Assembly (NCBI GenBank): GCA_021739695.1
Contig: JAIPBM010000015.1
Location: forward strand, 1 to 64,000
DNA length: 64,000 nt
Source: Flavobacteriales bacterium
GTDB taxonomy: Bacteria > Bacteroidota > Bacteroidia > UBA10329
Direction: 5' to 3'
Part shown: piece by piece, positions 1-17,149 of the stretch
How the letters are laid out: each line of letters opens with the position of its first letter
Position numbering within the stretch: the stretch's first letter is position 1
Position numbers and translations under genes: made by a program
Notes under the pieces: model-generated
What the model saw: only the letters and a program-made list of their open reading frames with translations
Database searches by the model: none
Told to the model about the DNA's origin: nothing

Positions 1-369
1 CTTGGACCTGCTTACGCAATGGGAAAAATCCTTGAGCGAAATGGCTTGAAGATGGAAGACATGGACGTGATTGAATTCCATGAGGCATTTGCCGGACAGA
101 TTCTAGCAAACATTGCGGCTCTTGCATCTGATGAGTTCTGCCAAGAAAATATTGGCCTCGACAAAGCTGTTGGCCAGATTCCAATGGACAAAATGAACCT
201 GTGGGGCGGATCGCTTTCCATCGGCCATCCATTCGGAGCTACTGGTGCGAGAATCGTGACCACCACAGCTAACCGCTTGATTGCGGAAGGCGGCAAATAC
301 GGTCTATTGGCCGCTTGTGCTGCCGGTGCGCACGGTCATGCATGTATTTTGGAACGATACGAATCATGA
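1..369 (+). CDS. Acetyl-CoA acyltransferase (thiolase), C-terminal part
   Basis: The open frame runs in from the left edge, so only the last 122 residues are visible. They are the C-terminal half of a thiolase, which cleaves 3-ketoacyl-CoA to acetyl-CoA and a shortened acyl-CoA. Visible landmarks are HEAFAGQ (the usual NEAFA region), [16 protein letters not shown] (the GHP motif with the catalytic His) and CAAGAHGHA, which carries the second active-site Cys in a form closer to FadI/trifunctional-protein beta subunits than to biosynthetic thiolases. The stop overlaps the next start as ATGA. The hydratase/dehydrogenase partner lies 1.4 kb downstream at 1741, so this is a beta-oxidation pair that has been separated. 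Confidence 0.93.
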
Positions 370-1103: not shown

Positions 1104-1122
1104 GAGTAAAGGCGATTGATTG

Positions 1123-1572
1123 GCGAATAACGATTAACGAACAGCGATTTACGATTGATGACACCGCAGGAACTTGAAGACAGGTTGATCGCCTTTGCAG
1201 TTTCCATCGTTCGGATAACGGAAAAGATGTCAAATTCATACGCTTCGCGATACTATGCTAACCAACTGTTACGAAGCGGGGCTTCTCCAGCGTTAAATTA
1301 TGGAGAGGCCAGATCAGCCGAATCAACAAAAGACTTCATTCATAAAGTGAACATCATTATTAAAGAGTTGAGGGAAAGCTTCATTTGTTTGAAGATCATT
1401 GAGCAGACAAATCTTCATTCAGAAATGAGTGTTATTCAGACAGCAAAATTAGAATGCAACGAACTGATTTCCATTTTCGTGGCAAGTGTAAACACCGCAA
1501 AAAAGAAACAATAGGAGTAACGTGAATCGACTGCAAACAATCGCAATTCGTTAATCGATAATCGTTATTCGC
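1123..1572. repeat. Inverted repeats flanking the four-helix-bundle gene
   Basis: The left arm at 1123-1141 reads gcgaataacgattaacgaa. The right arm, read on the other strand from 1572 back to 1547, has the same sequence with a 7-base insertion in the middle; positions 1123-1135 and 1560-1572 are a perfect 13-base inverted match. The arms sit just outside the coding region 1158-1514. This is seen directly in the sequence. That the bracketed unit is or was mobile is an inference. Confidence 0.7.
1158..1514 (+). CDS. Four helix bundle protein (23S rRNA intervening-sequence protein family)
   Basis: 118 residues starting at the ATG at 1158; a TTG one codon earlier is the only alternative. The protein is almost wholly helical, with LIAFAVSIVRITEKM in the first helix, the family-typical YYANQLLRSGASPALNYGEA in the second, and IIIKELRESFICLKII in the third. 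This matches the four-helix-bundle family often called the S23 or intervening-sequence protein, related to the Avd accessory protein of diversity-generating retroelements. No reverse transcriptase or template repeat is nearby. Its cellular role is not established. It is bracketed by inverted repeats, lies between two beta-oxidation genes, and has no obvious operon partner. Confidence 0.88.
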   Translation: MTPQELEDRLIAFAVSIVRITEKMSNSYASRYYANQLLRSGASPALNYGEARSAESTKDFIHKVNIIIKELRESFICLKIIEQTNLHSEMSVIQTAKLECNELISIFVASVNTAKKKQ

Positions 1573-1747
1573 AAATTGAATACTATGAAAATGAGGGACG
1601 AAGAACGATTAACGATTGAAAATATAATTACCAATTGGAAGAAAAGCGTTCTCGGAAAAATAAATCACACCAATAACATCTATCGATTCCAGCCATTCAC
1701 AATTCGTTAATCGATAATCGTTATTCGCAAATTGAATACTATGAAAA
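1544..1747 (+). repeat. 48-base direct repeat duplicating the fadJ-like start region
   Basis: Positions 1544-1591 and 1700-1747 are identical over 48 bases, 156 bases apart. The second copy contains the real start codon of the following gene (ATG at 1741) and its upstream bases. The first copy carries the same bases including an ATG at 1585, which opens a 41-codon frame ending at 1710 that is probably meaningless. The 108 bases between the copies contain another block (gaacgattaacgattg) resembling the inverted-repeat arms at 1123. The arrangement suggests a target-site-like or slippage duplication linked to insertion of the four-helix-bundle unit. This accounts for the gene-free stretch 1515-1740. 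Confidence 0.9.
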
Positions 1748-3870
1748 ATAAGTACGTTGAAATAGAAAAACGAAACGGCATTGCCATCATTTGGATGGAC
1801 GAGCAAGACTCGAAGATCAACAAGATCGGGCCGGATATGATCGACACCTTCAATCCGATGATGGATGAATTGGAGAAAGATCCTGAGGTGCGAGCTGCTG
1901 TGATGATCAGTCGCAAGAAGGACTTCATCGCGGGAGCAGACATTGAAGCTTTTGCCAATGTGAAGAAGGAAGGCGATTGGCAACCCATTGCCAAGAAAGG
2001 TCACGAGATTCTTGATCGACTTTCTAAAAGCAAAAAACCTGTTGTGGCCGCCATCAATGGTGCCTGCATGGGCGCTGGATTGGAGATTGCCTTGGCATGT
2101 GCCGCTCGCGTTGCTTCGGATAGTCCGAAAACAATCATGTCGCTACCCGAAGTGAAACTCGGTCTGCTGCCTGGCGGTGGCGGAACGCAACGACTTCCAC
2201 GTTTGGTTGGTATTCAGAAAGCATTGGACATGATGCTTACCGGCAAAAACGTGTTTGCCTATCCTGCCAAGAAAATGGGATTGGTTGACCGAATTGCAAC
2301 CAAAGAAGCCTTGCTCGATGCAGCCATTGTTCTCGCAAATGAGATTGCGAAGCGACCGCTCAAAAGAGAAGACAAGCGTTCGGGAATGGAGAAATTCCTT
2401 GAAGGAAATCCGATCACGCGCGGCATCATTTTCAAGAAGGCGAAGGAGATGGTTGACCGTCAGACGAACGGAAATTATCCAGCTCCTTACGAGATCATGG
2501 AATGTGTAAAAGTCGGAATGAGTTCGGGCGAAAAAGCGGGTTATGCCGAAGAGGTGAAACGCTTCGAAAAACTCATCCTCACGCCAGAGAGTTTCCAGCT
2601 TCGTGGCATTTTCTTCGCCATGACGGAAAAGAAGAAAAATCCGCAGGCCGCATTGGCACGCAAAACCGACACCATGGCCATGGTCGGTGCTGGTTTCATG
2701 GGTGCAGGAATTGCACAGGTTTCTGCCGCTAGGGATGTTCGAGTACTACTCAAGGACATCAAGCAGGAAACATTGACCCAAGCACGCAAAACCATTTGGG
2801 GCGACATTGGCAAGCGCGTGCAGCGCAAGGCGATGAACCAATTAGATGCCGACCGATTGATGAACCGCATCAACGGACAGCTCGATTACAACAATTTTGA
2901 CAAGGTTGATGTGTTGATTGAAGCAGTCTTCGAAGACCTCAAAATCAAACATATTGTAATGAAAGAATGCGAGGAGCATTTGAGCAAGGACGCGATTTTC
3001 GCTTCCAACACCTCCGCACTTCCGATCAGCGAAATCGCGAAAGCAAGTAAACGACCTGAGCAGGTAATTGGGATGCACTACTTCTCCCCTGTTCCGAAAA
3101 TGCCGTTGTTGGAAATCGTGGTGACAGATCAAACTGCTGATTGGGTCACGTCAACTTGCTACGACCTTGGTGTCCGTCAAGGAAAGACCGTGATCGTTGT
3201 GAAGGATGGTCCTGGTTTCTACACCACACGTATCCTTGCTCCGCTTTTGGGCGAAGCTCTAAACATGCTGGAAGAAGGTGCGGATGCCCTTCAGATAGAT
3301 AAAGTGCTGAAGAAGTTCGGTTTCCCAGTTGGACCGATAACCTTGATGGACGAAGTTGGAATTGACGTTGGCGCGCACATCATGAGTGGTGAGTTGATGC
3401 AGCATTTCGTTTCCACCAGAAAAGGAGTGAAAGTTTCTCAGGCGATGAAGAAGATGTTCGATGCCGGATACCACGGTCGCAAGAACAAGAAAGGCTTCTA
3501 TCAATATGATGAGAACGGCAAGAAGAAGCGCGAACTCGACCCTAACGTTTATAGCTTTTTCGGGGGCAACACCCGCAAGCAGTTTGACGAGAAGGAAATG
3601 TATGAGCGCATTGGCATGAGCATGGTAAGCGAAGCCGCTTTGTGTCTTCAAGAAGGCATCATTGCCAATCCGTTGGATGGCGATGTGGGTGCTGTTTTCG
3701 GACTCGGCTTCCCTCCTTTCCGTGGCGGACCGTTCCGTTACATGGACACACTTGGAGCGCAAGCAACGGTTGACATCTTCAACCGATTGGCAGCGAAACA
3801 TGGCGAGCGTTTCCTTCCGCCTCAGATCATTGTTGATAAGGCGAAGGCGGGAGAGAAGTTCTATCAATAG
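1741..3870 (+). CDS. fadJ: Bifunctional enoyl-CoA hydratase / 3-hydroxyacyl-CoA dehydrogenase
   Basis: 709 residues from the ATG at 1741; a TTG three codons upstream lies in the duplicated repeat and is not used. It catalyses the hydration and NAD-dependent oxidation steps of fatty-acid beta-oxidation in the cytoplasm. Residues ~1-290 are a crotonase domain, with the oxyanion-hole segments DFIAGADIEAF and GACMGAGLEIALAC. Residues ~310-490 are the NAD-binding domain with GAGFMGAGIAQ, followed by HYFSPVPKMPLLEIV containing the catalytic His, and two C-terminal dimerisation domains with a second GFPPFRGGPFRYMD. Length fits FadB/FadJ (about 710). The partner thiolase lies upstream. The symbol is by family and could equally be fadB. 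Confidence 0.93.
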   Translation: MKNKYVEIEKRNGIAIIWMDEQDSKINKIGPDMIDTFNPMMDELEKDPEVRAAVMISRKKDFIAGADIEAFANVKKEGDWQPIAKKGHEILDRLSKSKKPVVAAINGACMGAGLEIALACAARVASDSPKTIMSLPEVKLGLLPGGGGTQRLPRLVGIQKALDMMLTGKNVFAYPAKKMGLVDRIATKEALLDAAIVLANEIAKRPLKREDKRSGMEKFLEGNPITRGIIFKKAKEMVDRQTNGNYPAPYEIMECVKVGMSSGEKAGYAEEVKRFEKLILTPESFQLRGIFFAMTEKKKNPQAALARKTDTMAMVGAGFMGAGIAQVSAARDVRVLLKDIKQETLTQARKTIWGDIGKRVQRKAMNQLDADRLMNRINGQLDYNNFDKVDVLIEAVFEDLKIKHIVMKECEEHLSKDAIFASNTSALPISEIAKASKRPEQVIGMHYFSPVPKMPLLEIVVTDQTADWVTSTCYDLGVRQGKTVIVVKDGPGFYTTRILAPLLGEALNMLEEGADALQIDKVLKKFGFPVGPITLMDEVGIDVGAHIMSGELMQHFVSTRKGVKVSQAMKKMFDAGYHGRKNKKGFYQYDENGKKKRELDPNVYSFFGGNTRKQFDEKEMYERIGMSMVSEAALCLQEGIIANPLDGDVGAVFGLGFPPFRGGPFRYMDTLGAQATVDIFNRLAAKHGERFLPPQIIVDKAKAGEKFYQ

Positions 3871-4110: not shown

Positions 4111-7100
4111 ATGCTTCGTCCCTCCCACTTTTTTGTTGCTGCATTAGGGCTTGCGCTTTTCCATGGCAGCTTGGCCAAGGCAGATGGAATTCAATTCATT
4201 GAGAATCTCGGGCAATGGAATTCGAAGGTGCTTTACAAGGTAGACATCCCCTCTGGAGCACTTTTTCTAGAGAAGGACGGTTTCACCTATTCGTTACTGG
4301 AACGGGAGACGCACCACCATCCACATGTGCAACATCCCGAATCGACCATGCTGAGGGGGCACGCTTTCAGAATGAAATTCGAACAGGCATCGGATGCGGT
4401 TCAGCACGCAGGAGATCACAAGAGCTCAAACTATCGAAACTACTTTATCGGAAACGACCCCGACCAATGGAAATCGTGGGTCTATGCTTATGCCGAAGTG
4501 AACTACACATCGCTCTATGATGGCATTGACCTCAAGGTCTATTCCCATAACGGTAGTCTGAAATATGATCTGATAATCGCACCCAATGCAAACCCCAACA
4601 CCGTTGCCATGCATTACGAAGGATTGGACGATATGCGGGTGCTTGCAAGTGGCGATCTGAAACTCACCACCTCCATCATGGATGTTTTCGAGAAAAGTCC
4701 TGTTGCATTTCAGGTGATTGACGGACTGCGGAAAGACGTTGCATGCAAATTCAAACTCGAAGGAAAGCGCGTTTCATTTGAGTTCCCCAACGGCTATGAC
4801 GAAAACCATGAACTCGTCATCGACCCTCAGTTGGTTTTTGCCTCCTACACCGGTTCTACCACCGATAATTTCGGAAGCACCGCCACGTTCGACAACAACG
4901 GGAACCTTTATGGGGCGGGAACAAGCTTCGGCTCAGGTTACCCTGTAACCACGGGAGCCTATACCCAACCAGCAGCTGGCAATACCGATATCGGCATCAG
5001 TAAGTTCAGTGCCGATGGCTCTACCTTATTGTATTCCACTTTTGTTGGTGGCGCCCATGCCGAATCGGTGAACAGCCTTATTGTAAACAGCAATGATGAA
5101 CTCTATCTGTTGGGAACATCCAGTAGCTTGGACTATCCCTTAAGCACCACGGCATTCCAATCTACCAATGGCCGAGGGCAAGCCGTCAATTGGTCTGCAT
5201 TGCCACCTTCCGGTTTTTCGTATGGCTATGGAATTGAACATGCCTTGGGATGCGACATCGTAATAACCAGATTAGCTGCTGATGGCTCCAATATCCTATC
5301 GTCAACCTTTGTTGGTGGAACCGATAATGACGGCCTGAATCCGAACACCATCCTGTACTATAATTACGGAGACCCCTTCAGAGGAGAGATAAACATTGAT
5401 GCTGCCGGAAACGTGTATGTGGCCAGTTCTACCGAATCGGCCGATTTTCCTGTGACCGCAGGATCGGCTCAACCCAACATTGGAGGCGGCCGCGATGGCG
5501 TGGTTTTTAAGATGAATCCGAACCTAAGCACCATGCTTTGGTCCACATTCATTGGAGGTTCTTCAACAGATAATGCCTATTCCGTTCAGCTGAGTTCGTC
5601 AGGAGAAGTGGTGGTGGCTGGAGGAACGATCAGCAGCAATTTCCCTACAACTTCAGGCACACTTTTTCCTAATTCTCTCGGTCAGGCTGATGGATGGGTC
5701 ACGAAAATCGCGCCTAACGGAAGTACTTTCAACGCATCTACCTTCATCGGAACGAACAAATACGACCAGGTCTATTTTGTGCAACTTGACCCCGATGACA
5801 ATATTTTCCTTTTGGGCCAAAGCCTTGGCAATATCCCAACAACACCTGCAACGGTTTACAGCAATCCTAGCAGCGGGCAGTTCATCCAAAAATTGGACAA
5901 TTCTCTGAGTACAGTTCTCGTATCTACTACCATCGGAACAAGCAGTGGTTCCATCGATTTTTCGCCCACGGCATTTCTGGTGAGCAACTGCTACCAGATA
6001 TTTCTTTCCGGTTGGGGTGGTTCTACCAATCGGGAAGTTGGCAATGCAACTCAAAGCACAACCGTTGGGCTTCCCATTAGTTCCGATGCATTTCAGTCTA
6101 CCACAGATGGCAGTGATTTCTACCTGATGATGCTCGAAAAAAACGTGGAAAGTCTGATCTACGGAACATTTTTCGGAGGTGCTCAAAGTGATGAACACGT
6201 TGATGGAGGCACGAGCCGATTTGACAAGAACGGAGTGGTCTATCAGGCCGTGTGCGCTGGTTGTGGCAATCATGATGATTTTCCGACAACACCTGGGGCT
6301 TGGTCCAACACAAACAATTCTAGCAATTGCAATTTGGGTGTGTTCAAATTCGACCTTAATCAGGTTATTGCTGTTCCTGCGTTCAACGTGCTTCTCGAAA
6401 ATTGTGAGTATCCCCTCGAAGTTGAATTCAGCAACACGAGTTCGGGCGCCAATACCTTTTTATGGGATTACGGAGATGGAGTAGTTTCTACCGCATTCGA
6501 TGGCAGTCACTTTTATGCTGACCCAGGAAGTTATGAGGTAAGCTTATTGGCTTCCGATTCTGCGGGATGCCTGACACCCGACTCCGCCACCTTACAATTC
6601 GATATTCCCATTCCACCGGTGATCTTGGCTTTTGGAACAGACACCATCTGCGCATTAGACACGGTGCCTCTAGGTGTTGATGGCGTGGGAATAGCAAGTT
6701 ATGAGTGGATTCCTCCCGGGTCATTGGATGACCCATATTCAACCCAACCCAATGCAAACCCAACAGAAACCACGGTCTATACCGTATTGGCAACCGACTC
6801 TATCGGATGCACCGTTTCTCAAGAGGTCATTGTTTACGTATCAGACCCTCCTCCGCTTGATGCAGGGGAAGATGCATATCTGCAACCAGGAGTTTACGGA
6901 GAGTTGACCCCAAATGTGAATCCTGGAAACATCGTTGAATGGACGCCTCCTGAAGGATTGAGCTGCACAGATTGCCCGAATCCGATTGCCAATCCGGAAG
7001 AAACCACCACTTACTATATTCTTGTGACCGATGAGCTGGGTTGCACCAACACGGATTCCGTAATCGTATACGCCTACCCGACCATCTATGTGCCTAATGC

Positions 7101-7365
7101 ATTCACTCCTGGCGGAAACAACAAAAACCCCATATTCTACGCCTATGGAAGAGGAATTGCAGATTTCACGTTGACCATTTATAGCCGCTGGGGACAGGTG
7201 ATTTTCCAAAGTACCGATCTAGACACAGGTTGGGATGGAACCATGAACGGCACCGATGTGCAAACGGGTGTGTACATCTGGAGCCTGAAATACACCACTG
7301 ATATTGAGCCGCTTACCATACACACAGACATTGGGCATGTCACCCTTCTCAGAAACGTGTATTAG
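4111..7365 (+). CDS. Large secreted SBBP-repeat / PKD protein with gliding-motility-type C-terminal sorting domain
   Basis: 1084 residues. A signal peptide (residues 1-24, ending AKADG) precedes an N-terminal module beginning IQFIENLGQWNSKV, typical of the DUF7948 type. From about residue 250 to 720 there are repeated blades of the SBBP beta-propeller type, recognisable by recurring phrases such as LLYSTFVGG, ILSSTFVGG, MLWSTFIGG and FPTTSGT. A PKD domain follows at about 770-830 (FLWDYGDG, PGSYEVSLLA), then two Ig-like cysteine-containing segments, and from about 992 the type B T9SS tag (YVPNAFTPGG ... YSRWGQVIFQ ... GWDGTMNG ... GVYIWSLKY). The protein is therefore expected at the cell surface, perhaps as an adhesin. 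Its ligand is unknown, and it appears to be a single-gene unit. Confidence 0.9.
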   Translation: MLRPSHFFVAALGLALFHGSLAKADGIQFIENLGQWNSKVLYKVDIPSGALFLEKDGFTYSLLERETHHHPHVQHPESTMLRGHAFRMKFEQASDAVQHAGDHKSSNYRNYFIGNDPDQWKSWVYAYAEVNYTSLYDGIDLKVYSHNGSLKYDLIIAPNANPNTVAMHYEGLDDMRVLASGDLKLTTSIMDVFEKSPVAFQVIDGLRKDVACKFKLEGKRVSFEFPNGYDENHELVIDPQLVFASYTGSTTDNFGSTATFDNNGNLYGAGTSFGSGYPVTTGAYTQPAAGNTDIGISKFSADGSTLLYSTFVGGAHAESVNSLIVNSNDELYLLGTSSSLDYPLSTTAFQSTNGRGQAVNWSALPPSGFSYGYGIEHALGCDIVITRLAADGSNILSSTFVGGTDNDGLNPNTILYYNYGDPFRGEINIDAAGNVYVASSTESADFPVTAGSAQPNIGGGRDGVVFKMNPNLSTMLWSTFIGGSSTDNAYSVQLSSSGEVVVAGGTISSNFPTTSGTLFPNSLGQADGWVTKIAPNGSTFNASTFIGTNKYDQVYFVQLDPDDNIFLLGQSLGNIPTTPATVYSNPSSGQFIQKLDNSLSTVLVSTTIGTSSGSIDFSPTAFLVSNCYQIFLSGWGGSTNREVGNATQSTTVGLPISSDAFQSTTDGSDFYLMMLEKNVESLIYGTFFGGAQSDEHVDGGTSRFDKNGVVYQAVCAGCGNHDDFPTTPGAWSNTNNSSNCNLGVFKFDLNQVIAVPAFNVLLENCEYPLEVEFSNTSSGANTFLWDYGDGVVSTAFDGSHFYADPGSYEVSLLASDSAGCLTPDSATLQFDIPIPPVILAFGTDTICALDTVPLGVDGVGIASYEWIPPGSLDDPYSTQPNANPTETTVYTVLATDSIGCTVSQEVIVYVSDPPPLDAGEDAYLQPGVYGELTPNVNPGNIVEWTPPEGLSCTDCPNPIANPEETTTYYILVTDELGCTNTDSVIVYAYPTIYVPNAFTPGGNNKNPIFYAYGRGIADFTLTIYSRWGQVIFQSTDLDTGWDGTMNGTDVQTGVYIWSLKYTTDIEPLTIHTDIGHVTLLRNVY

Positions 7366-7444: not shown

Positions 7445-8137
7445 ATGAAAAATAACCTTGTTTATCCCGTCTTGCTGCTTGCAATTATCCACCTTTTTGG
7501 TTGTAGCAGTAAATCGGAAAAACCAGCTGAACCGGAAGTTGCCCAAACAGATCAGCCAGCGGCTGTAACCGGAAACGCCCAAAAAGGTCAATCGTTGTAT
7601 GTGGTGTGCTCAACTTGCCATGGCCCACAAGCTGATGGAATGCTTGCATTGGGCGCTCCTGCCTTAGCAGATCAAGAGCCTTATTACTTGCATCAACAGT
7701 TGCAGAACTTCAGAACCAACAAGCGTGGTATTCATGAAAAAGATGTGTTTGGCGCTCAAATGGCACCTATGGCAAAAACGCTGAATGGAGAAGGAATTGA
7801 CGATGTGATCGCTTACATCAAAACCATGCCTTCTCCCAAAGTAGTACCAACGATGGCGGGAGGCGATGCCGAGAACGGGAAAGCCTATTACAACATGATC
7901 TGTGGCGCATGTCACGGCCCAGGTGCTGTTGGGATTGAGTCGCTGCATTCACCTCGATTGGTCGGTCTTCAGGATTGGTATGTGGAACGTCAGCTCAATA
8001 ACTTCCGACAAGGAGTACGTGGTACGGTTGATGGAGACACATACGGTGCGCAGATGCAGCAGATAGCCTTGTCAATTCCAGATGATAAAACAGTGAGCGA
8101 CCTCATCGCGTACATCAATTCGCTGAGCGCTGAATGA
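7445..8137 (+). CDS. Diheme c-type cytochrome lipoprotein (cytochrome c4-like)
   Basis: 230 residues. The N-terminus (LLLAIIHLFGC, Cys20) is a lipoprotein signal, so the protein is membrane-anchored outside the cytoplasm. Two class I cytochrome c domains follow, with heme sites CSTCH at 55-59 and CGACH at 153-157. Each is followed by the same internal pattern (YLHQQLQNFR / YVERQLNNFRQG ... GAQM), as in cytochrome c4 and similar diheme carriers, with the Met of GAQM-type loops as likely sixth ligands. It is first in the redox cluster 7445-16230 and overlaps the next gene by ATGA (8134-8137). It most likely shuttles electrons from the periplasmic enzymes encoded downstream to the respiratory chain. 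Confidence 0.92.
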   Translation: MKNNLVYPVLLLAIIHLFGCSSKSEKPAEPEVAQTDQPAAVTGNAQKGQSLYVVCSTCHGPQADGMLALGAPALADQEPYYLHQQLQNFRTNKRGIHEKDVFGAQMAPMAKTLNGEGIDDVIAYIKTMPSPKVVPTMAGGDAENGKAYYNMICGACHGPGAVGIESLHSPRLVGLQDWYVERQLNNFRQGVRGTVDGDTYGAQMQQIALSIPDDKTVSDLIAYINSLSAE

Positions 8138-9333
8138 GAAACTCGCTCGCAGGAATCGTTTTTCTGTTAGCGGCCATTTCGTTCGCCCTTTCATCCTGCG
8201 AAAAAGATATTGTTCCGAATGATGCGGAGGGTACACAAGAAATAGTCTCCACCTCTAACGGTGAATTCGAACTCTGCAAAAACTGTCCGCCAGGATTTGA
8301 GCTGACGGATGAAGGCATTTGCAAACTCCGTTCGCTTTATCAGCAATATGCTTCTCTTACAGATCAAGGCGTTGGAGGGTTGAAAACTGCACTTCCTGAA
8401 TTCCGAGACGGTTTCACCCCGCAACAGATAGACCTTGGCCGCTACCTTTTCTTCGACCCCATTCTTTCTAAAGATGGAACAATAAGTTGCGCTTCGTGCC
8501 ATCAACTCGAAAAAGCGTTCAGCGATGGCTTGGCAACTAGTGTTGGAATTGGCGGGCAAGAGGTAAAACGTGGGGCGCCAAGTTTGTGGAACGTGGCCTT
8601 CCTCAAACTTTTCTTTTGGGATGGACGAGCCACAACCTTGGAAGAACAGATGCAGGGTCCGCTTTTCGCAGAAAACGAAATGGGAACAACGCCTCATAAT
8701 TTGCGTGAGACCATCAACTCCATTCCCAATTATGGCAAAATGTTCCGCGTAGCGTTTCCAGAACGGAATGAGGCCAAAATCCAGTTGGAAGAAATCTATA
8801 CGGCTTTGGCAGCTTTTCAGACATCGCTCATTTCTCTCAATAGCCGCTACGACCAATACGCGCACGGTTTTCATGGCGCGTTGAATCCGCAGGAAATTGA
8901 AGGAATGAATGTGTTCCGTTCGTTTGTGGCCCGCTGTGCCGAATGCCACACGCCACCGCTTTTCACTAATCAGCAACTGGCTGTTCTGGGAACGCCAGAG
9001 CCTGAAGGACGCGAGTTGGATCCAGGAGCGCAGGTTCCTTACAACGATGTTTCGCTGCGGGCAGGATTCAAAATTCCGAGTCTGAGAAATGTGGCGCTAA
9101 CCGCTCCATACATGCATTCGGGTAGGTTTAAAACACTTCGCGAAACAGTAGAATTCTACACCAAGGGTCGCGGCCATGCCGTTCCCGAAGGAGAAAATCT
9201 CTACTTGCATTGGCACATTTGGGAGCCCGAGCTCTCAGATAACGAGTTAGATCGACTCGTAGATTTCCTCCAAACACTTACGGATGAAAGCTTTATGCCA
9301 AAACGTCCAGATCGATTACCTTCATCGCCTTGA
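8134..9333 (+). CDS. MauG/CcpA-family diheme peroxidase-like lipoprotein
   Basis: 399 residues with a lipoprotein signal (SFALSSC, Cys22). Heme sites are CASCH at 119-123 and CAECH at 268-272, in the two-domain layout of bacterial diheme cytochrome c peroxidases and MauG-like enzymes. Conserved surroundings are visible: LGRYLFFDPILSKDGTISC, FWDGRATTLEEQ and SLRNVALTAPYMHSGRF. These proteins reduce peroxide or carry out long-range oxidation of a partner. Which applies here cannot be read from sequence. Residues ~48-63 form a small extra Cys module (CKNCPPGFELTDEGIC) before the enzyme core, an unusual addition. Its ATGA overlap with the upstream cytochrome implies translational coupling. Confidence 0.9.
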   Translation: MRNSLAGIVFLLAAISFALSSCEKDIVPNDAEGTQEIVSTSNGEFELCKNCPPGFELTDEGICKLRSLYQQYASLTDQGVGGLKTALPEFRDGFTPQQIDLGRYLFFDPILSKDGTISCASCHQLEKAFSDGLATSVGIGGQEVKRGAPSLWNVAFLKLFFWDGRATTLEEQMQGPLFAENEMGTTPHNLRETINSIPNYGKMFRVAFPERNEAKIQLEEIYTALAAFQTSLISLNSRYDQYAHGFHGALNPQEIEGMNVFRSFVARCAECHTPPLFTNQQLAVLGTPEPEGRELDPGAQVPYNDVSLRAGFKIPSLRNVALTAPYMHSGRFKTLRETVEFYTKGRGHAVPEGENLYLHWHIWEPELSDNELDRLVDFLQTLTDESFMPKRPDRLPSSP

Positions 9334-9358
9334 TAAAAATCAACTCTCTCAAAACACC

Positions 9359-10852
9359 ATGAAAAAAGCCATCATTTGGATCATTGTAAGCGCACTCGTC
9401 TTCGCGATCGGTGTCTATTTCGGTAAAGTAAAATTCTCAGCTTCTGGCCCTGCCGCCCCTCCCCCAACCTTCTTTGAAGGTGGCGATGGAACAATGGCTG
9501 TTGATCTTTCAGAGAAAAACGTTATCGAAGTAAAGGATGGCCAATCTATCCAAGAAGCTGTTGGAAAGGCAAATCCGGGTGACCTAATCCGTGTTTATCC
9601 TGGAACGTATCACGAATGCGTCTACATCGATAAGGACAACATAACGCTTCAAGGCGTTATCCAAAAAGGGAATTGGCCAACATTGGATGGAAGTAAGGAC
9701 GGTGAGAAAGTCTTGAATGATGCGATTCTCTATTCGGGGTCGAATATGCTGATCGAGAACTTCAAGATCGTTCAGTACAAGGGTAACGGCATCATGGGTC
9801 AGGCAGGAAACAACTTCCTCATTCGCAACAATTGGATCATCGAATCAGGTGTTTACGGCATCTTCCCAGAATTCGGGAAAAATGGTCTTATCGAGCACAA
9901 CATTCTTAGCGGAATTGCGGATGCAGCCATTTACGTTGGCATGTGCGACAACATTGATGTGAAGTACAACGAGGTATACGAAAGTGTGGCTGGAATTGAG
10001 ATTGAGAACTGCCGTCATGCTTTGGTAGAAGGCAATTACACACACGATAACACAGGCGGAATCCTCGCCTTTATCACTCCTGGACTTCCCATCAAAACCT
10101 GCTTTGATGTGATCATCCGAAACAACTTCGTTGTAAACAACAACCACGAGAATTTCGGAAAACCGGGCGCCATCATATCGTTGCTTCCTAAAGGAACAGG
10201 GATTATTGTAATGGCTGCTGATGATGTGGTGATTGAGAACAACATCATTACCGGAAACGGAAACACGGGAATAGCAATTACCGACCTGAGTTTTGGTTCT
10301 CAATTATCGAAAGATACTGCGGTTGAACCAAATCCTGACCGTGTGGTGATTCTGGACAACGTGATGTATGGAAATGGAGAAAACCCAGTGGCTGACATTA
10401 AAGCGGCCATGGCTACTCAAATGGACACGAAAGGTCCAGACATTCTTGCTTACGGAGGCGGTGTTGGAAGTTGCATCCGTAATCGGGACATGTACCGAAC
10501 ATGGGGATTGGAAAATTATGCAAGTTGTGAATTGGCCAGTACTGCTAACGTAAAATCGTACTTGTTGGCGGAACCGGTCGCACCTAGAGAATTGGAGACG
10601 GATGAAAAAGGAAAGATGGCCTATTACGGAGTTTGCTCTGGTTGCCATGCCTACGATGTCCGCATGATCGGGCCTCCTGTTCAAGCCATTCAAGCCATGT
10701 ACAAAGACAATCCGCAAGGCTTGGCCGACTACATAGCCAATCCTGTTCGTAGACGTGAGGATTATCCGGAAATGCCGCCTCAGAATTACTTGACAGAAGA
10801 AACCCGTTTAGCCGTTGCTGAGTTCATGCTCAACTTCGAAAAGAAAAAATAA
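9359..10852 (+). CDS. Right-handed beta-helix protein fused to a C-terminal cytochrome c domain
   Basis: 497 residues from the ATG at 9359, which gives a signal-anchor helix (IIWIIVSALVFAIGVYFG) and a Pro-rich linker; the longer frame from 9284 lies inside the previous gene. Residues ~60-400 are a right-handed parallel beta-helix with many short turns of the form NxxIxxNxI and VEGNYTHDNTGG, related to NosD-type and pectinase-like helices. Residue 426 starts CSGCH, a single heme site, with MPPQ further on as probable Met ligand, so the last ~85 residues are a monoheme cytochrome c. No catalytic residues of polysaccharide lyases are obvious. It is followed 15 bases later by a paralogous beta-helix gene. 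Confidence 0.88.
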   Translation: MKKAIIWIIVSALVFAIGVYFGKVKFSASGPAAPPPTFFEGGDGTMAVDLSEKNVIEVKDGQSIQEAVGKANPGDLIRVYPGTYHECVYIDKDNITLQGVIQKGNWPTLDGSKDGEKVLNDAILYSGSNMLIENFKIVQYKGNGIMGQAGNNFLIRNNWIIESGVYGIFPEFGKNGLIEHNILSGIADAAIYVGMCDNIDVKYNEVYESVAGIEIENCRHALVEGNYTHDNTGGILAFITPGLPIKTCFDVIIRNNFVVNNNHENFGKPGAIISLLPKGTGIIVMAADDVVIENNIITGNGNTGIAITDLSFGSQLSKDTAVEPNPDRVVILDNVMYGNGENPVADIKAAMATQMDTKGPDILAYGGGVGSCIRNRDMYRTWGLENYASCELASTANVKSYLLAEPVAPRELETDEKGKMAYYGVCSGCHAYDVRMIGPPVQAIQAMYKDNPQGLADYIANPVRRREDYPEMPPQNYLTEETRLAVAEFMLNFEKKK

Positions 10853-10867
10853 TCAACCCAACCCCAA

Positions 10868-12094
10868 ATGACCATCAACCATAAACTTCTCAGCATAGCG
10901 GCAAGCGCTATGCTGTTTACTTCATGCGCCCAACCCAAACTGAGCTCCGAAGAACTTCACAAGAAGTTGCAAGAGGAGATGATCGCGGTGCAGGAAGGTG
11001 GCGTGATTGAGATTCCTGAAGGAACATACGAGTTCACGAGCGATCTTTCTATGCGCGATGTGAAAAACGTGACCATAAAAGGTGCGGGAATGGATAAGAC
11101 CATCATCAACTTCGGTAAACAGACCGATGGCGCACAGGGTTTTTATATCAAAGCTGATGGCGTGACCATTTCTGACATGACCATTCAGGATTTGAGTGGT
11201 GATGGAATCAAAGTGCACGAAAGCAAGAATGTGACCATCCGAAACGTGAAGGTTGAATGGACAAATGGTTCTTCCTCAGCTAACGGTGCCTATGCGCTTT
11301 ATCCTGTGCTCTGCGATGGATTGTTGATTGAGAAATGCACGCTCACAAATGCGAGCGATGCAGGGATTTACGCAGGACAAAGTCGCAACGTGATTCTTCG
11401 CGACAATTACGCTTCCATGAACGTGCAGGGAATTGCGATTGAAAACTGCTCGTTTGTGGATGTTTACAACAACACTTGCGAAGGAAATGCCTGCGGAATC
11501 GCGTTCTACAACCTTCCAGACCTCATCGAAAAGCAAGGAACAAACGTTCGTATCCACGACAACATCATCCGAAACAACAACCACGATAACTTCGGAAATC
11601 CGGGGGCAATTGTAGGAGTTCTTCCAGGCGGAACAGCAAGCTTCATCTTGGCAGGAAGAAACATTGAAATGGATCACAACACCTTCTCAAATCACAAAAC
11701 CACCAGCACGGGCATCATCAGCTACCAATTGACGGAGCGTCCGTATGAAGACAGCCTCTTCTACCCTTTCTCAACTGGAATCAACGTTCACGATAACATC
11801 TACGAAGACCAAGAACCGATGCTGCCAGACACCACAAAACGTTTGGGTAAGCTGATGGCCTCGTTGTTCGGAGCAAAATCGCCTCATATCGTTTATGATG
11901 GCATTTTCGATCCTGCGCTTATCAACATGGAAACCATGACCATTGCGCCTGAGGACATGATCTGCATCAAGAACAACAACACAACTTTCTGCAACTTCAA
12001 TGCTCCTAGCAACTTTCAAGACCTGAGTACGGAATTGGAAGGCTTTGATTGCGAACATCCAAGACCAGAATCTCCTGTCAAAGAAGAAATCTGA
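10868..12094 (+). CDS. Parallel beta-helix repeat lipoprotein (TIGR03805-like)
   Basis: 408 residues. A lipoprotein signal (SAMLFTSC, Cys20) precedes an all-beta-helix protein with repeated turns (VTISDMTIQDL, VTIRNVKVEW, VILRDNYASM, VRIHDNIIRN). It shares with the previous gene the block NNNHDNFGNPGAIVGVLPGGT (residues ~236-256), so the two are paralogues, but it has no heme site. As I recall, this family occurs regularly as a gene pair with the HNE_0200/SO2930 cytochrome family, function unknown. Here the partner is at 12957, with a dehydrogenase gene between them. Its stop overlaps the next start as TGATG. Confidence 0.88.
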   Translation: MTINHKLLSIAASAMLFTSCAQPKLSSEELHKKLQEEMIAVQEGGVIEIPEGTYEFTSDLSMRDVKNVTIKGAGMDKTIINFGKQTDGAQGFYIKADGVTISDMTIQDLSGDGIKVHESKNVTIRNVKVEWTNGSSSANGAYALYPVLCDGLLIEKCTLTNASDAGIYAGQSRNVILRDNYASMNVQGIAIENCSFVDVYNNTCEGNACGIAFYNLPDLIEKQGTNVRIHDNIIRNNNHDNFGNPGAIVGVLPGGTASFILAGRNIEMDHNTFSNHKTTSTGIISYQLTERPYEDSLFYPFSTGINVHDNIYEDQEPMLPDTTKRLGKLMASLFGAKSPHIVYDGIFDPALINMETMTIAPEDMICIKNNNTTFCNFNAPSNFQDLSTELEGFDCEHPRPESPVKEEI

Positions 12095-12957
12095 TGAACG
12101 GAAAAACAGTCGTCATCACAGGCGGAAACGCGGGAATCGGCAGAGCCACCGCCATTGATCTTGCCAAGAAAGGTGCAAATGTGGTGATCACATCTCGCTC
12201 AGAAGACAAAGCGAAAGAAGCGGTTGCGGAGATCAAGAAATCGTCAGGAAACGAGAAGGTTGATTTTGTGACCATTGACCTGAGTTCGCAGAAATCAGTT
12301 CGCGAAGCGGCAGAAAAAGTGAGAACGAAATGTCCAAAGATTGATGTCTTGATCAATAATGCCGGATGCTATGTTTCTGACCTGCAACTGAATGTTGATG
12401 GGTTGGAAATGCAGTTCGCCACGAATCATTTGGGACATTTTCTACTGACCAATCTGTTGATGGACAATCTGAAAGCCGCAGGAAAAGCGCGCATCGTCAA
12501 CCTCGCATCGATTGCCCACAAATCAACCCGTGAACTGGACCTCAACGACATCAATTTCGAAAAGTCTGGTTATGGCGGTTGGAAATCGTATTCGCGTTCC
12601 AAGTTCTGCAACATCCTTTTCACAAAAGAATTGGCCAAGCGATTGGAAGGAACGGGCATCACTGCCAATGCAGTTCATCCAGGCGGTGTGCGCACCGAAA
12701 TTGCCGAAAAGAACGCCAATTGGTTCACAAAACTTGGTTGGATTTTGAGCAAGCCGCTGATGGTTACAGTGGAAGAAGGTGCAAAAACATCCATTCATTT
12801 GGCATCATCGCCAGATGTTGAAGGAGAAACAGGCGGTTATTGGGTAAAAAGCAAAAAATTCTTCAGCAATCGCCCATCACAAGAACCCGAAACGGCCAAG
12901 GCACTTTGGAAAAAGAGCGAAGAATTGGTTGGTCAGGAATTTCCATTGGGTAATTGA
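12094..12957 (+). CDS. Short-chain dehydrogenase/reductase (retinol-dehydrogenase-like)
   Basis: 287 residues from the ATG at 12094, which overlaps the preceding stop; the longer frame from 12049 would read through the previous gene. This is a classical SDR: TGGNAGIGRATA at the N-terminus binds NAD(P), NNAG follows at ~87, and the active site is NLASIAHKS with YSRSK further on. It has no signal peptide and should be cytoplasmic, acting on an alcohol or carbonyl substrate. The closest general type is retinol dehydrogenase/WW-domain oxidoreductase-like SDRs of lipophilic alcohols. It is coupled by TGATG overlaps to both neighbours, so it is co-expressed with the envelope cytochromes and is the one soluble enzyme in the middle of the cluster. 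Confidence 0.92.
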   Translation: MNGKTVVITGGNAGIGRATAIDLAKKGANVVITSRSEDKAKEAVAEIKKSSGNEKVDFVTIDLSSQKSVREAAEKVRTKCPKIDVLINNAGCYVSDLQLNVDGLEMQFATNHLGHFLLTNLLMDNLKAAGKARIVNLASIAHKSTRELDLNDINFEKSGYGGWKSYSRSKFCNILFTKELAKRLEGTGITANAVHPGGVRTEIAEKNANWFTKLGWILSKPLMVTVEEGAKTSIHLASSPDVEGETGGYWVKSKKFFSNRPSQEPETAKALWKKSEELVGQEFPLGN

Positions 12958-14039
12958 TGCGCAAGCTCCTCATCATAGGAATTATTGTTGCTGTTTGGAT
13001 TGGATGCAGCGAAAAACCGTCTCTTGAAGGTCCTGTGAATGTTCCCATTTCGGGAGATTATTTCAAGAAATTATCCGAGTATCATCTATTCCGAGGCGAT
13101 CTGAAAAACCTTGAAGCAAATGATGGCGTGCTGCCTTACACACTGAATTCCACTCTCTTCACTGATTACGCTCACAAAGCGCGATTCGTTTGGATGCCTG
13201 ATGGAAAAGCAGCCGAGTACAATCCAACACGAGAGTTTGATTTTCCTGTCGGAGCTGTTCTCGTAAAAAACTTCTATTATCCGCTTGATTTTAGAGATGA
13301 AAGCAAAGGACGAAGGATCATTGAAACGCGGTTGTTAATACATCGCGAAGATGGTTGGGTCGGACTTCCGTACATCTGGAATGAGGAACAAACGGATGCG
13401 CAATTGGAATTGGCAGGAGGTCGAACGGATGTTTCGTGGATTCATGATGATGGCACGAAGAAATCCGTCAACTACGTGATTCCGAACAAGAACCAATGCA
13501 AAGGCTGCCACGAATACGATAAGGCGATGGTTCCCATCGGGCCGAAAGCCAAGCATTTGAACCGAGATTTTGCATATGCGGATGGAGAAATGAACCAGCT
13601 GGAAAAGTGGGTATCGAAAGGTTATCTAGCGAGATTTTCGTCTTCAGAAATAACCCCGAAACTGGCTGTTTGGGATGATGAATCAACCGGCACGTTGGAT
13701 GAACGCGCCCGAGCTTGGCTCGACATCAATTGTGCGCATTGCCACAATGCGAAAGGTCCGGGAAATACATCAGGTTTCTTCTTGAATATCGAAGAAACAG
13801 ATTGTACCAAACGTGGTTTCAAGAAGACCAATGTGGCTGCTGGTCGCGGTGGCGGACAGTACATGTACGACATTGCTCCTGGTCAACCCGACAGTTCCAT
13901 CATGGTTTACAGAATGGAAAGCACCGATCCGGGCATCATGATGCCTGAATTAGGTAGAAAATTGGTGCATGAAGAGGCAATGGTTGTCATTCGCCAATGG
14001 ATTGCAGAGATGGACGAGAACAAGCCATGCGTCAACTAA
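12957..14039 (+). CDS. SO2930/HNE_0200-family diheme c-type cytochrome lipoprotein
   Basis: 360 residues from the ATG at 12957 (TGATG overlap; a TTG one codon earlier is ignored). The N-terminus IIVAVWIGC gives a lipid-modified Cys17. The family signature begins with the LSEYHLFRGDL and LEANDGVLPYTLNSTLFTDYAHKARFVWMP segments. Heme sites are CKGCH at 181-185 and CAHCH at 259-263, followed by SGFFLN, PDSSIMVYRM and IMMPELGR with a candidate Met ligand. The family is uncharacterised; in other genomes it is paired with parallel beta-helix proteins, as it is here. It most likely transfers electrons in the periplasm for a dehydrogenation carried out by the cluster. Confidence 0.88.
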   Translation: MRKLLIIGIIVAVWIGCSEKPSLEGPVNVPISGDYFKKLSEYHLFRGDLKNLEANDGVLPYTLNSTLFTDYAHKARFVWMPDGKAAEYNPTREFDFPVGAVLVKNFYYPLDFRDESKGRRIIETRLLIHREDGWVGLPYIWNEEQTDAQLELAGGRTDVSWIHDDGTKKSVNYVIPNKNQCKGCHEYDKAMVPIGPKAKHLNRDFAYADGEMNQLEKWVSKGYLARFSSSEITPKLAVWDDESTGTLDERARAWLDINCAHCHNAKGPGNTSGFFLNIEETDCTKRGFKKTNVAAGRGGGQYMYDIAPGQPDSSIMVYRMESTDPGIMMPELGRKLVHEEAMVVIRQWIAEMDENKPCVN

Positions 14040-14083
14040 GCACAACTCACTATCTTGTCAATTTTATCAACTCAGTAAACTAA

Positions 14084-15709
14084 ATGGCAACAGGAACACC
14101 TTGGAAACGACTTGAGAAGAAAACAGGATACGATGCCATCGTCATCGGTTCGGGATTGGGCGCCATGACATTCGGGGCCATTATGGCCAAAATGGGCAAG
14201 AAGATCCTGTTGCTCGAAAAACACTACGTTCCGGGCGGTTTCACGCACGTTTTTAAGCGGAAAGAATACGAATGGGACGTGGGAATTCACTACGTAGGAG
14301 ATGTCCATCATGATTTTACATTCATGAGCATTTTGTTCGACTACATTTCTGACCATCAGCTGAAATGGCAAGAAATGGATGAGGTTTACGACCGCATCGT
14401 TCTGGGAGAAAACGTCTATGATTTCAAAGCGGGAAAAGAGAATTTTCTGGAGATGCTTTATGAACGCTTTCCAGGAGAAGAAGACGCCATAGACAACTAC
14501 ATCAAACGGGTTTATCAGTCTGCTGCGCAGAACAAGAAATTCTTTCAAGAGCGGGCGTTGCCATCCATTTTGAGTGTGCTTTTCGGGTCAATGATGACCA
14601 AGAAGTATTATGAATTGTCGGACAAAACCACAAGCGAGGTTTTGGACGAGATCACCGACAATAGAGAATTGAAAGCTGTGCTTGCCGGACAATATGGTGA
14701 CCACGGAATGCCTCCGGGAGAAAGCAGTTTCGCTATTCAATCTGTGGTGAACAAGCATTACTGGAAAGGCGGTGCATTTCCTATAGGTGGCTGCCAGCGC
14801 ATTGCGGAAACCATTATTCCGGTGATTGAAAAAGCAGGTGGAGCGGTTGCTGTGCGCGCTGGAGTTGAGAAGATAATTGTCGAAAATGGAAAAGCCACAG
14901 GTGTGCTGATGGAAGATGGTACAATCCTCGAAGCTCCGATGATCGTGAGCAGCGCAGGTTATCTGAACACCTTCGGAAGATTGCTGGACAAAGACATTCA
15001 AAATGCCATTGGTTTTAGTCCTGAAAAGGGCGTGCCACCTTCGGTTTCGCATGTTTGTTTGTATATCGGTTTGAAAGAAAACCTCCGCGAATTAGGAATT
15101 GGCAATACGAATTATTGGGTTTATCCGCATAACGATCATGACCGTGGCGTGAAGGAATACATGGCCGATCCGAGCAAACCGTTTCCTGTCACATACATTT
15201 CTTTCCCATCAATCAAAGACCCTGAATGGGACGATCGTTATCCTGGAAAGAGCACGATTGAAATGATCACGCTGGCGCCTTACGAATGGTTTGCCAAGTG
15301 GGAAGACGAGCGCTGGAAACACCGTGGTGAGGAGTACGAAGCCTACAAGGAAGAATTCGCGCAGCGCTTGTTGAAAGAACTTTACAAGCAGTTTCCGCAA
15401 TTGGAAGGAAAGATTGATTACTACGAACTTTCCACGCCACTTTCTACTAAGCATTTTGTGAACTACGAGCATGGCGAGATCTATGGCCTCGACCACTCTC
15501 CTGCCCGCTTCCGAATGAAGGAACTTCGTCCGAAAACACCTATCAAAAATCTATACCTGACAGGTCAGGATATTGTGACAGTTGGAATTGGCGGTGCGCT
15601 GATGAGCGGACTACTGACCGCAGCTCACGTAACCACCAGTTTCACCCTTGCTGACAAGATCGTTGATTCGGTGATGAAACAGCGCGAACAACTAAAAAAA
15701 CAAGCATGA
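14084..15709 (+). CDS. FAD-dependent oxidoreductase of the retinol saturase / carotenoid isomerase type
   Basis: 541 residues. The N-terminus has the dinucleotide-binding fold DAIVIGSGLGAMTFGAIMAKMGKKILLLEKH, followed by VPGGFTHVFKRKEYEWDVGIHYVGD, characteristic of the CrtI/CrtISO/RetSat group. The C-terminus has LYLTGQDIVTVGIGGALMSG, the second FAD-contacting motif. It lacks an export signal. The family desaturates, saturates or isomerises polyene or isoprenoid chains and some fatty acids. Together with the retinol-dehydrogenase-like SDR at 12094 this hints at a lipophilic isoprenoid or long-chain substrate, but that is inference. It starts 44 bases after the diheme cytochrome and overlaps the next gene by ATGA. 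Confidence 0.9.
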   Translation: MATGTPWKRLEKKTGYDAIVIGSGLGAMTFGAIMAKMGKKILLLEKHYVPGGFTHVFKRKEYEWDVGIHYVGDVHHDFTFMSILFDYISDHQLKWQEMDEVYDRIVLGENVYDFKAGKENFLEMLYERFPGEEDAIDNYIKRVYQSAAQNKKFFQERALPSILSVLFGSMMTKKYYELSDKTTSEVLDEITDNRELKAVLAGQYGDHGMPPGESSFAIQSVVNKHYWKGGAFPIGGCQRIAETIIPVIEKAGGAVAVRAGVEKIIVENGKATGVLMEDGTILEAPMIVSSAGYLNTFGRLLDKDIQNAIGFSPEKGVPPSVSHVCLYIGLKENLRELGIGNTNYWVYPHNDHDRGVKEYMADPSKPFPVTYISFPSIKDPEWDDRYPGKSTIEMITLAPYEWFAKWEDERWKHRGEEYEAYKEEFAQRLLKELYKQFPQLEGKIDYYELSTPLSTKHFVNYEHGEIYGLDHSPARFRMKELRPKTPIKNLYLTGQDIVTVGIGGALMSGLLTAAHVTTSFTLADKIVDSVMKQREQLKKQA

Positions 15710-16230
15710 AACGAATGATTCCCTTTTTATTTGTTGGATTTGCTGCCTGCAACCAACCCACAGACCAACCAAGCGCAGCCGAAGAAAACGTAGTTGCGCG
15801 AACCAAAACAATGGAATATGCTGTGGACCTGAATTCGGTGTTTCATCAAGATCTGAATGACGAGGATTTTTCGGATGTTTCGCCACTCAGTGTGCAACTA
15901 ATCGCGGATGTGCTTTCTGGAAAACTGAAGGCTTATGACCGTTCGTCAGATGAAGTATTGAGCGCAGAACAGGTAAAGAATATGCTGCAATTCACAGACA
16001 CCATTTGGTTTGAGGAGGAGGAAACCGGGGATAAATCCATTGAAATTTTCGAACGAGATTACTCCAAAGATTTCTACGGATTGACCTTTAGAGAACAGTG
16101 GAGTTATGATGCAGAAGGCTCCATCATCAATCGAAAAATTTTGGGCCTAGCGCCAAGAATCCCTGTCTACTCATCGCAAGGTGGAGATCTGCGTGGTTAT
16201 ACCTCTGCTTTTTGGGTGAAGTACGATTGA
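15706..16230 (+). CDS. Lipoprotein of unknown function, possibly GldN/PorN-like
   Basis: 174 residues with a short lipoprotein signal (FLFVGFAAC, Cys15) and a Gln/Thr/Pro-rich linker. I do not recognise the family with certainty. Segments such as LIADVLSGKLKAYD, FREQWSYDAEGSIINRKILGLAPRIPVY resemble the general layout of GldN/PorN, the gliding/type IX secretion component, which has a similar 'E-W-x-D ... S ... R-I-I-G-I-A-P' region; the resemblance is by eye only. It overlaps the flavoprotein gene by ATGA and is probably the last gene of the redox cluster, since a hairpin and a GTG-started gene follow. Confidence 0.65.
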   Translation: MKRMIPFLFVGFAACNQPTDQPSAAEENVVARTKTMEYAVDLNSVFHQDLNDEDFSDVSPLSVQLIADVLSGKLKAYDRSSDEVLSAEQVKNMLQFTDTIWFEEEETGDKSIEIFERDYSKDFYGLTFREQWSYDAEGSIINRKILGLAPRIPVYSSQGGDLRGYTSAFWVKYD

Positions 16231-16259
16231 ACCTGATTCGTCCTTTCGTGTTCTTATTG

Positions 16260-16277
16260 CTTGAATCATCATTCAAG
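16260..16277 (+). promoter_or_regulatory. Perfect hairpin overlapping the GTG start of the next gene
   Basis: CTTGAAT-CATC-ATTCAAG is a 7-base-pair stem with a 4-base loop. Its last base is the G of the GTG start codon at 16277. It could limit ribosome access or simply be the end of the upstream transcript. No T tract follows, so it is not a standard terminator. Confidence 0.45.
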
Positions 16278-17149
16278 TGAAAAAGCGCTACATCTTTCTT
16301 CTCGTTTTTATTGGACTTCATATTCCACTTGCGATCTGGTATTTCAACAGCCCAATGTCGGTGGCAAATGACGAAGACACTTATGAATACTTCGAAGATG
16401 AAGGATTGAAATGCAGCATCGGTCACGATCGTATTTTCAATCATCCACTGCGCTGGGTTGAGGTTTCAACGCTCGATGAGGACAGGCTTCCAATCGTGAT
16501 TTTCACGCACGGTGCGCCTGGAGCCGCCAATAATTTCTTCCAGTTCCTAACTGACACTTCCCTTCTGAAATATGCTCGGTTGATCTCGATCGATCGTTTG
16601 GGCTACAGTCCTGATGACCAAGGGAATGCTGAGGTTTCGATTCAAAAACAGAGCGAGGCAATTGCCAAGGTGCTTTCGCATTACGCCTATCCGTACGTGA
16701 TTGCGGTGGGGCATTCTTATGGCGGACCGATCACTTCCAGTTTTGTGTTGGATAATCCTGAAAAGGTCAAGGCGGCTGTTTTGCTTGCTCCTGCTCTCGA
16801 CCCAGACGAAGAGAAGGATTTTGCCATTGTGAAATTCACAGAATGGAAAGCGACACGTTGGGCTGTTCCTGCATTTTTTATGGTGGCCGCTGCGGAGAAA
16901 AAGGCACATGAGGCTGAACTGCGAAAGCTTCTTCCGAAATGGAAGGCCGTGCAAACTCCGTTCATTCATGTACACGGAACGGATGATGATATTGTTCCGT
17001 ACGAGAACATTGCATTTTCGAAACGGATGATTCCTGATTCGCTATTGACGGTGATCACCATTGAAGGCGGAACACACATGACTCCTTGGGAAGATGAAGA
17101 CCTCGTCAAGGATCAACTTTTGCAGCTTCTGTACGAATCACATCAGTAA
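16277..17149 (+). CDS. Alpha/beta hydrolase, membrane-anchored
   Basis: 290 residues, starting with GTG at 16277 (no ATG fits the signal-anchor). The N-terminal hydrophobic helix (IFLLVFIGLHIPLAIWYF) anchors or exports the protein. The catalytic triad can be placed: nucleophile Ser in AVGHSYGGPI, Asp in HGTDDDIVPY and His in EGGTHMTPWEDE. The oxyanion region is FTHGAPGAANNF. Substrate unknown. The last 12 bases overlap the convergent gene at 17138. Possibly read through from the redox cluster upstream, but the 46-base gap with a hairpin leaves this open. Confidence 0.88.
   Translation: MKKRYIFLLVFIGLHIPLAIWYFNSPMSVANDEDTYEYFEDEGLKCSIGHDRIFNHPLRWVEVSTLDEDRLPIVIFTHGAPGAANNFFQFLTDTSLLKYARLISIDRLGYSPDDQGNAEVSIQKQSEAIAKVLSHYAYPYVIAVGHSYGGPITSSFVLDNPEKVKAAVLLAPALDPDEEKDFAIVKFTEWKATRWAVPAFFMVAAAEKKAHEAELRKLLPKWKAVQTPFIHVHGTDDDIVPYENIAFSKRMIPDSLLTVITIEGGTHMTPWEDEDLVKDQLLQLLYESHQ

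Follow-up and report, generated by a model that had tools for sequence, protein, structure and literature searches.

Relatives of MauG oxidise residues of partner proteins encoded by adjacent genes, as in the formation of TTQ and in the Trp-to-kynurenine step proposed for CorA/MopE, and the MauG-like genes of methanotrophs adjoin genes for proteins whose Trp becomes kynurenine (PMC3912023). In the cytochromes P460, the Lys residue cross-linked to the heme is Lys78/Lys70, and this position, occupied by Lys78 in McP460 and by Phe61 in cytochrome c'-beta, separates the two classes (PMC11928373). Literature searches found no functional account of MauG acting with beta-helix proteins, and likewise none of the gene pair that encodes a beta-helix protein (BH) and a diheme protein of the HNE_0200/SO2930 family (HNE), SO_2930 and SO_2931 being mentioned only as outer-membrane cytochromes. 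The gene cluster presented here provides concrete leads on these last two protein families of unassigned function, HNE_0200/SO2930 and its beta-helix partner, which are common in many phyla.

The window is the whole stretch of DNA that was analysed, 64,000 nucleotides of contig JAIPBM010000015.1 (GCA_021739695.1). This contig is the fifteenth in an assembly of 4.24 Mb, and the genes encoded there, like the closest relatives, place it in the Bacteroidota. A run of nine genes occupies positions 7445-17149 of its plus strand and is divided below into module A (the MauG-like enzyme, the beta-helix/cytochrome fusion BHcyt and the cytochrome cytc2), module B (the BH/HNE pair) and module C (the SDR, RetSat-like, GldN-like and hydrolase genes):

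7445..8137, + strand: cytc2, diheme cytochrome c lipoprotein (CSTCH and CGACH; lipobox LFGC; PF00034 in two stretches, 77 bits); the third member of module A
8134..9333, + strand: mauG, MauG/MbnH-like diheme lipoprotein (PF03150, 185.6 bits)
9359..10852, + strand: BHcyt, membrane-anchored parallel beta-helix with a C-terminal monoheme cytochrome c (CSGCH; PF13229, PF13442; TIGR03805, 191.8 bits)
10868..12094, + strand: BH, lipoprotein with a parallel beta-helix, leading gene of the BH/HNE pair (TIGR03805, 322.9 bits)
12094..12957, + strand: SDR oxidoreductase, PRK06197-like, between BH and HNE (PF00106, 145 bits)
12957..14039, + strand: HNE, HNE_0200/SO2930-family diheme lipoprotein (TIGR03806, 405.2 bits)
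13266..13268, + strand: codon of the invariant Lys of HNE (residue 105 counted from 12954, 104 from the ATG at 12957)
14084..15709, + strand: RetSat-like, FAD oxidoreductase of the CrtI/CrtISO/RetSat type (PF01593; TIGR02730, 141 bits); module C
15706..16230, + strand: GldN-like lipoprotein (PF19841, 48 bits); module C
16277..17149, + strand: alpha/beta hydrolase, ninth gene, 46 bases past the eighth (PF00561, 66.5 bits); kept in four other members of the genus

Largely correct as a description, the original prediction, made from the DNA letters, had listed eight open genes on one strand, all of which are present where it had placed them; the alpha/beta hydrolase gene (16277-17149) is an addition to these. 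Its figure of six out of seven junctions overlapping or under 50 bases rightly conveyed the tight spacing and understated it, as every one of the eight junctions in the nine-gene run is either an overlap or a gap of at most 46 bases when start codons are set from orthologues. This comparison fixed the start of the SDR at 12094, that of HNE at 12957 and that of BHcyt at 9359 rather than 9284, because relatives of BHcyt have stops within the extra N-terminal stretch. Such spacing suggests that the run is one operon. Promoter and terminator scans over the cluster remained at chance level, and a Bacteroidota-type promoter pattern sought at the cluster was not found. The first codons of BH hold a perfect 10-bp hairpin with a T-rich tail (10891-10915), which is absent from another genome of the genus (G403) and probably a chance occurrence. 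Profile searches upheld the predicted domains, namely diheme cytochrome c, CCP_MauG, the beta-helix/cytochrome fusion, beta-helix, SDR and HNE_0200/SO2930. The proposed inventory of five heme proteins or domains with eight hemes proved too generous, a motif count giving seven CxxCH spread over four heme proteins. Lipoboxes are present in cytc2, mauG, BH, HNE and the eighth, GldN-like protein; the BHcyt fusion has none, and bears an N-terminal membrane anchor or signal instead.

At the core of module A, mauG and BHcyt form a conserved unit that is absent from the papers searched. In each of the 15 loci with available context, which are drawn from four families (f1, f59, f75 and f95), the mauG gene directly precedes BHcyt, and cytc2 lies upstream of mauG in 12 of these, family f75 being without cytc2 at that place. 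The orthologues of BHcyt constitute a compact family, scoring above 900 bits in 15 of 345 genomes of the class with the next homologue at 208 bits, and orthologues share 61-83% (mauG) or 64-93% (BHcyt) identity with the window proteins. The MauG-like protein belongs to the CCP_MauG diheme fold by its PF03150 score of 185.6 bits and its two CxxCH motifs; it falls below the NCBIfam cut-offs for both MauG (TIGR03791, 187.6 versus 443.85 bits) and MbnH (TIGR04039, 228.3 versus 362.85 bits), and its best PDB matches by sequence are cytochrome c peroxidases. Alignment to Paracoccus MauG sets its Tyr342 (codon 9157-9159) on Tyr294 (3l4m chain position 294), the axial heme ligand of MauG. This Tyr is invariant in 13 of 13 orthologues together with Trp162, Gln172 and Glu182, the latter three matching the active-site positions Trp94, Gln104 and Glu114 of CCP/MauG. 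An invariant His-Trp-His-x-Trp motif (HWHIW, window residues 359-363) is also seen near the C-terminus. The beta-helix of BHcyt, some 300 residues in length, ranks among the best-conserved parts of the locus, and the protein has exactly one invariant Trp, Trp106 (codon 9674-9676), in 14 of 14 orthologues. As judged from these sequence features, mauG and BHcyt may represent a new MauG-type enzyme/substrate pair; singling out Trp106 as the residue that is modified is a guess prompted solely by its conservation. Genes for a radical SAM activase and a glycyl-radical (PFL-like) enzyme adjoin module A in genus g175 (L180 11800-15111, L182 6236-9534 and L258 10459-13770).

The BH/HNE pair of module B has a far wider distribution. 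An HNE profile scan of 84,980 genomes yielded 80 loci and was supplemented with 20 further Bacteroidota loci, 93 independent loci having at least 1.5 kb of DNA upstream of HNE. BH is adjacent to HNE on the same strand in 78 of the 93, as anticipated for a recurrent gene pair, and matches to the HNE profile span many phyla, including Bacteroidota, Proteobacteria, Planctomycetota, Acidobacteriota and others. The HNE protein of the window passes the TIGR03806 cut-off (405.2 versus 313.3 bits), and the TIGR03805 cut-off of 141.5 bits is passed by both BH (322.9) and BHcyt (191.8). A neighbourhood analysis, which the original prediction had itself named as able to refute it, went against conservation of these genes beside the pair: within 10 kb of the HNE_0200 gene, an SDR like that of the window occurs in two of the 93 loci, a MauG-like gene in one, and a RetSat-like gene or the fusion in none, so that neither the flavoprotein gene nor the MauG-like gene is a conserved partner of the pair. 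A survey of 90 neighbour genes for conserved operon partners encountered sulfatases, SDRs, GSDH and sugar enzymes, none of them common enough to fix the substrate. In three loci a PQQ-type sugar dehydrogenase-like gene (GSDH) with a T9SS sorting tail directly follows HNE (L053 11047-12939, L054 11096-12988 and L190 1177-2826). Since GSDH-type genes stand beside HNE in these three loci only, the idea that HNE accepts electrons from a sugar dehydrogenase was not adopted.

The predicted structure of HNE (AlphaFold, pLDDT 94.7) displays an N-terminal beta domain that ends in the first CxxCH, followed by a helical C-terminal c-type domain, and several weak lines of sequence and model comparison agree in pointing to a resemblance between the N-terminal domain and cytochrome P460. 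Weak matches to PF16694 (E<=10) are found in 8 of 14 HNE members, the best with an E-value of 0.0018, and the window HNE, at 10.5 bits, misses the gathering score of 27 bits. Profile alignment by hhalign gave 88.5% (E 2.7e-6) for HNE against P460 proteins, and P460 remained the best match after CxxCH was removed from both sides, with 35% as compared to at most 4% for 45 decoy families; a control alignment of HNE with the BHcyt cytochrome reached 52%, but over the CxxCH segment only. Foldseek returned P460/c'-beta chains at ranks 3, 11 and 28 in one search, all with E>0.1, and at ranks 4, 6, 7, 10, 14, 18, 19, 23 and 37 in a search of 350,542 chains (E>0.1, TM ~0.3). A PDB sequence search with the HNE profile gave nothing significant. 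The Lys encoded at 13266..13268 is invariant in 69 of 69 HNE proteins, and remote alignment puts it on the P460 heme cross-link position. The P460 distal carboxylate (Glu96/Asp102) aligns, again remotely, with Arg126 of HNE, no acid, and an invariant Glu124 lies two residues before it. HNE may work like a P460 enzyme; it is described in these terms, and not filed as one, because the similarity is weak and the distal acid is not at the aligned position.

Module C, comprised of the SDR, RetSat-like, GldN-like and hydrolase genes, is a constant set within one subclade only. Each of the six genomes checked has a single gene of this SDR subfamily; the gene adjoins HNE in L053 and L054 and BH in G438, and in most other families it is not near BH. 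In genome G442, some 60 bases separate the SDR from the end of its contig, and HNE starts 45 bases into another contig, an arrangement that suggests adjacency of the two, with RetSat found 5 kb downstream of HNE. Some linkage of SDR and HNE (L053/L054, G442) is older than the genus. The RetSat-like gene is widespread in other families as a single gene that, except in G442, is not near BH/HNE. Its prediction as a RetSat-like flavoprotein holds in the form of a CrtI/CrtISO/RetSat-like protein below every equivalog cut-off, as with TIGR02730 (carotenoid isomerase/RetSat; 141 versus 586.9 bits). In genome G397 the RetSat-like protein (L172, 6118-7743) is 75% identical to that of the window, as against 92% for BHcyt and 87-89% for RetSat in other genus members, hinting at a gene replacement. 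The eighth gene, formerly termed simply a lipoprotein, does encode a lipobox and can be named more exactly: with 48 bits to PF19841 (cut-off 23) and 31.9 bits to the equivalog TIGR03523 (cut-off 85.9), it is classed by profile as a GldN-domain lipoprotein and not as GldN itself. No type IX secretion locus is visible around this gene (15706-16230). In the genus it remains next to the RetSat-like gene, and G400 encodes a more distant GldN-domain lipoprotein 3.7 kb from RetSat (L186).

Comparison within the window's genus reveals how these modules behave. Genomes G000 and G403 have the full order cytc2-mauG-BHcyt-BH-SDR-HNE-RetSat-GldN-hydrolase, and G397 and G401 have that of G000 without BH and HNE. 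A different beta-helix gene follows the SDR in G399, which has no HNE anywhere in its genome, and likewise in G398 as far as its contig reaches. In G400 and G402, cytc2-mauG-BHcyt stands alone, HNE and SDR being located on other contigs in G400. These genomes are drafts with completeness of 76-98%, in which a gene may be missing because of a gap in the assembly, but G397, G401 and G399 show the flanking genes in unbroken succession. Two genomes of the genus have the BH/HNE pair and others lack it or carry a replacement, and the SDR, RetSat, GldN-like and hydrolase genes are kept together in five genus members. A cluster built around BH and HNE, as first proposed, is the reverse of what the genus displays, where SDR, RetSat-like and MauG genes stay together and the pair comes and goes. 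Upstream on the same strand (window 19-3870) are a thiolase fragment and a fused HADH/enoyl-CoA hydratase; other members of the genus likewise have the HADH gene upstream of the cluster, and a thiolase/HADH pair is also near the SDR in G442 (L263). Between HADH and cytc2, the window encodes a large secreted protein (4111-7365; DUF7948, PKD and CHU_C sorting domain) that occupies this place only in G000 and G403.

The gene architecture, that is, the genes, modules, conserved residues and their phylogenetic behaviour, is well supported; co-transcription and all of the chemistry, substrates and electron flow are inferences. The explanation preferred here, tentatively and with somewhat less than even confidence, is a composite operon-like cluster of two or three independently inherited envelope heme-protein sets, not one dedicated pathway. 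Module A would be a conserved envelope unit of a MauG-type, Tyr-ligated diheme enzyme and its dedicated beta-helix/cytochrome partner. The MauG-like protein would most likely apply peroxide-derived oxidising power to BHcyt, in an oxidation that is possibly post-translational and for which Trp106 is the first candidate, while the beta-helix of BHcyt would bind a glycan or other envelope ligand and its heme would pass electrons on to cytc2. In module B, an independent and widespread pair, BH would offer a ligand on which HNE acts by means of a P460-like N-terminal heme, with electrons passing to the C-terminal c-type heme. The SDR, RetSat-like, GldN-like and hydrolase genes would be later additions, at a locus next to genes for the oxidation of fatty acids. 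A bolder joint reading, in which the enzyme of a new MauG-type pair, mauG-BHcyt, forms a protein-derived redox cofactor in the beta-helix cytochrome, out of Trp106 or an aromatic residue near it, and HNE_0200/SO2930 is also a diheme P460-fold branch with a Lys-cross-linked catalytic heme, is considered improbable.

A serious, if unlikely, rival regards the MauG-like protein as an ordinary H2O2-reducing diheme peroxidase with BHcyt and cytc2 as its donors, so that module A would be a peroxide-detoxifying or peroxide-respiring envelope chain involving no protein modification. Its cytochrome c peroxidase matches in the PDB, the invariance of the peroxidatic positions Gln172 and Glu182 and the c-type hemes carried by both neighbours of mauG are all consistent with such a chain, but the axial Met of the peroxidases is replaced by Tyr, as in MauG, and a donor needs no 300-residue beta-helix, yet this stretch ranks with the best conserved of the locus. 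The original prediction had united all genes in one pathway, where the SDR, the RetSat-like protein and the envelope proteins join in oxidising a lipophilic alcohol or isoprenoid, with delivery of the electrons to the cytochromes. Its redox and envelope aspect is supported, and the tight same-strand spacing of the nine genes, the persistence of SDR, RetSat, GldN-like and hydrolase genes together in five genus members, and the thiolase/HADH pair, which precedes the cluster on the same strand and recurs near the SDR in G442, argue in its favour. A single shared oxidation is unsupported, however, because the modules differ in distribution and, of 93 loci, 2, 1 and 0 have SDR, mauG and RetSat, respectively, in the vicinity of the pair. 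Indeed, RetSat and MauG genes are missing near 92-93 of the 93 other BH/HNE loci, RetSat relatives in other families stand alone, and G397 and G401 retain SDR and RetSat without BH/HNE, which makes the one-pathway account very doubtful. It is also rather unlikely that module A, the BH/HNE pair and module C have no more in common than a hot spot in the genome and a promoter, functionally uncoupled from one another: independent gain and loss of BH/HNE inside the genus and the location of module A and HNE on separate contigs in G400 and G442 would fit this, whereas several species retain the order A-SDR-RetSat-GldN and the SDR/HNE linkage reaches other families.

The value of the cluster is that it offers two testable leads, the MauG-type/beta-helix-cytochrome pair and the P460-like domain in the HNE_0200 family. 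Few MauG-type enzymes have a known partner protein, and one tied to a single partner across four families would add a new case; if module A is indeed a MauG-type pair, the beta-helix would be a new scaffold for protein-derived cofactors. A P460-like active-site heme would make HNE_0200/SO2930 and its beta-helix partner testable by simple spectroscopy.

Among known systems, the beta-helix proteins share the CASH-type beta-helix fold class with NosD of nitrous oxide reductase maturation, but with 61.3 and 40.7 bits to TIGR04247 they remain far from its cut-off of 300. The window BH and HNE pass the cut-offs of the TIGR03805/TIGR03806 (HNE_0200, SO2930) pair and are adjacent but for the SDR; in contrast to that pair elsewhere, the SDR intervenes and the two genes form part of a larger cluster, an arrangement that two genomes alone display. 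HNE is like cytochrome P460 and cytochrome c'-beta in having an N-terminal beta domain followed by CxxCH, with a Lys that the remote alignment puts at the P460 cross-link position, although the similarity is very remote, the Pfam cut-off is missed, the distal acid is off the aligned position and an extra C-terminal c-type heme domain is present. Module A shares with MauG and MbnH (CorB) the CCP_MauG fold, a Tyr at the Tyr294 position, the inter-heme Trp and a dedicated neighbouring partner gene. Its enzyme lies below both model cut-offs and hence is not filed as MauG or MbnH itself, and it differs in its partner, which is neither methylamine dehydrogenase nor a copper-binding protein, but a beta-helix joined to a cytochrome c.
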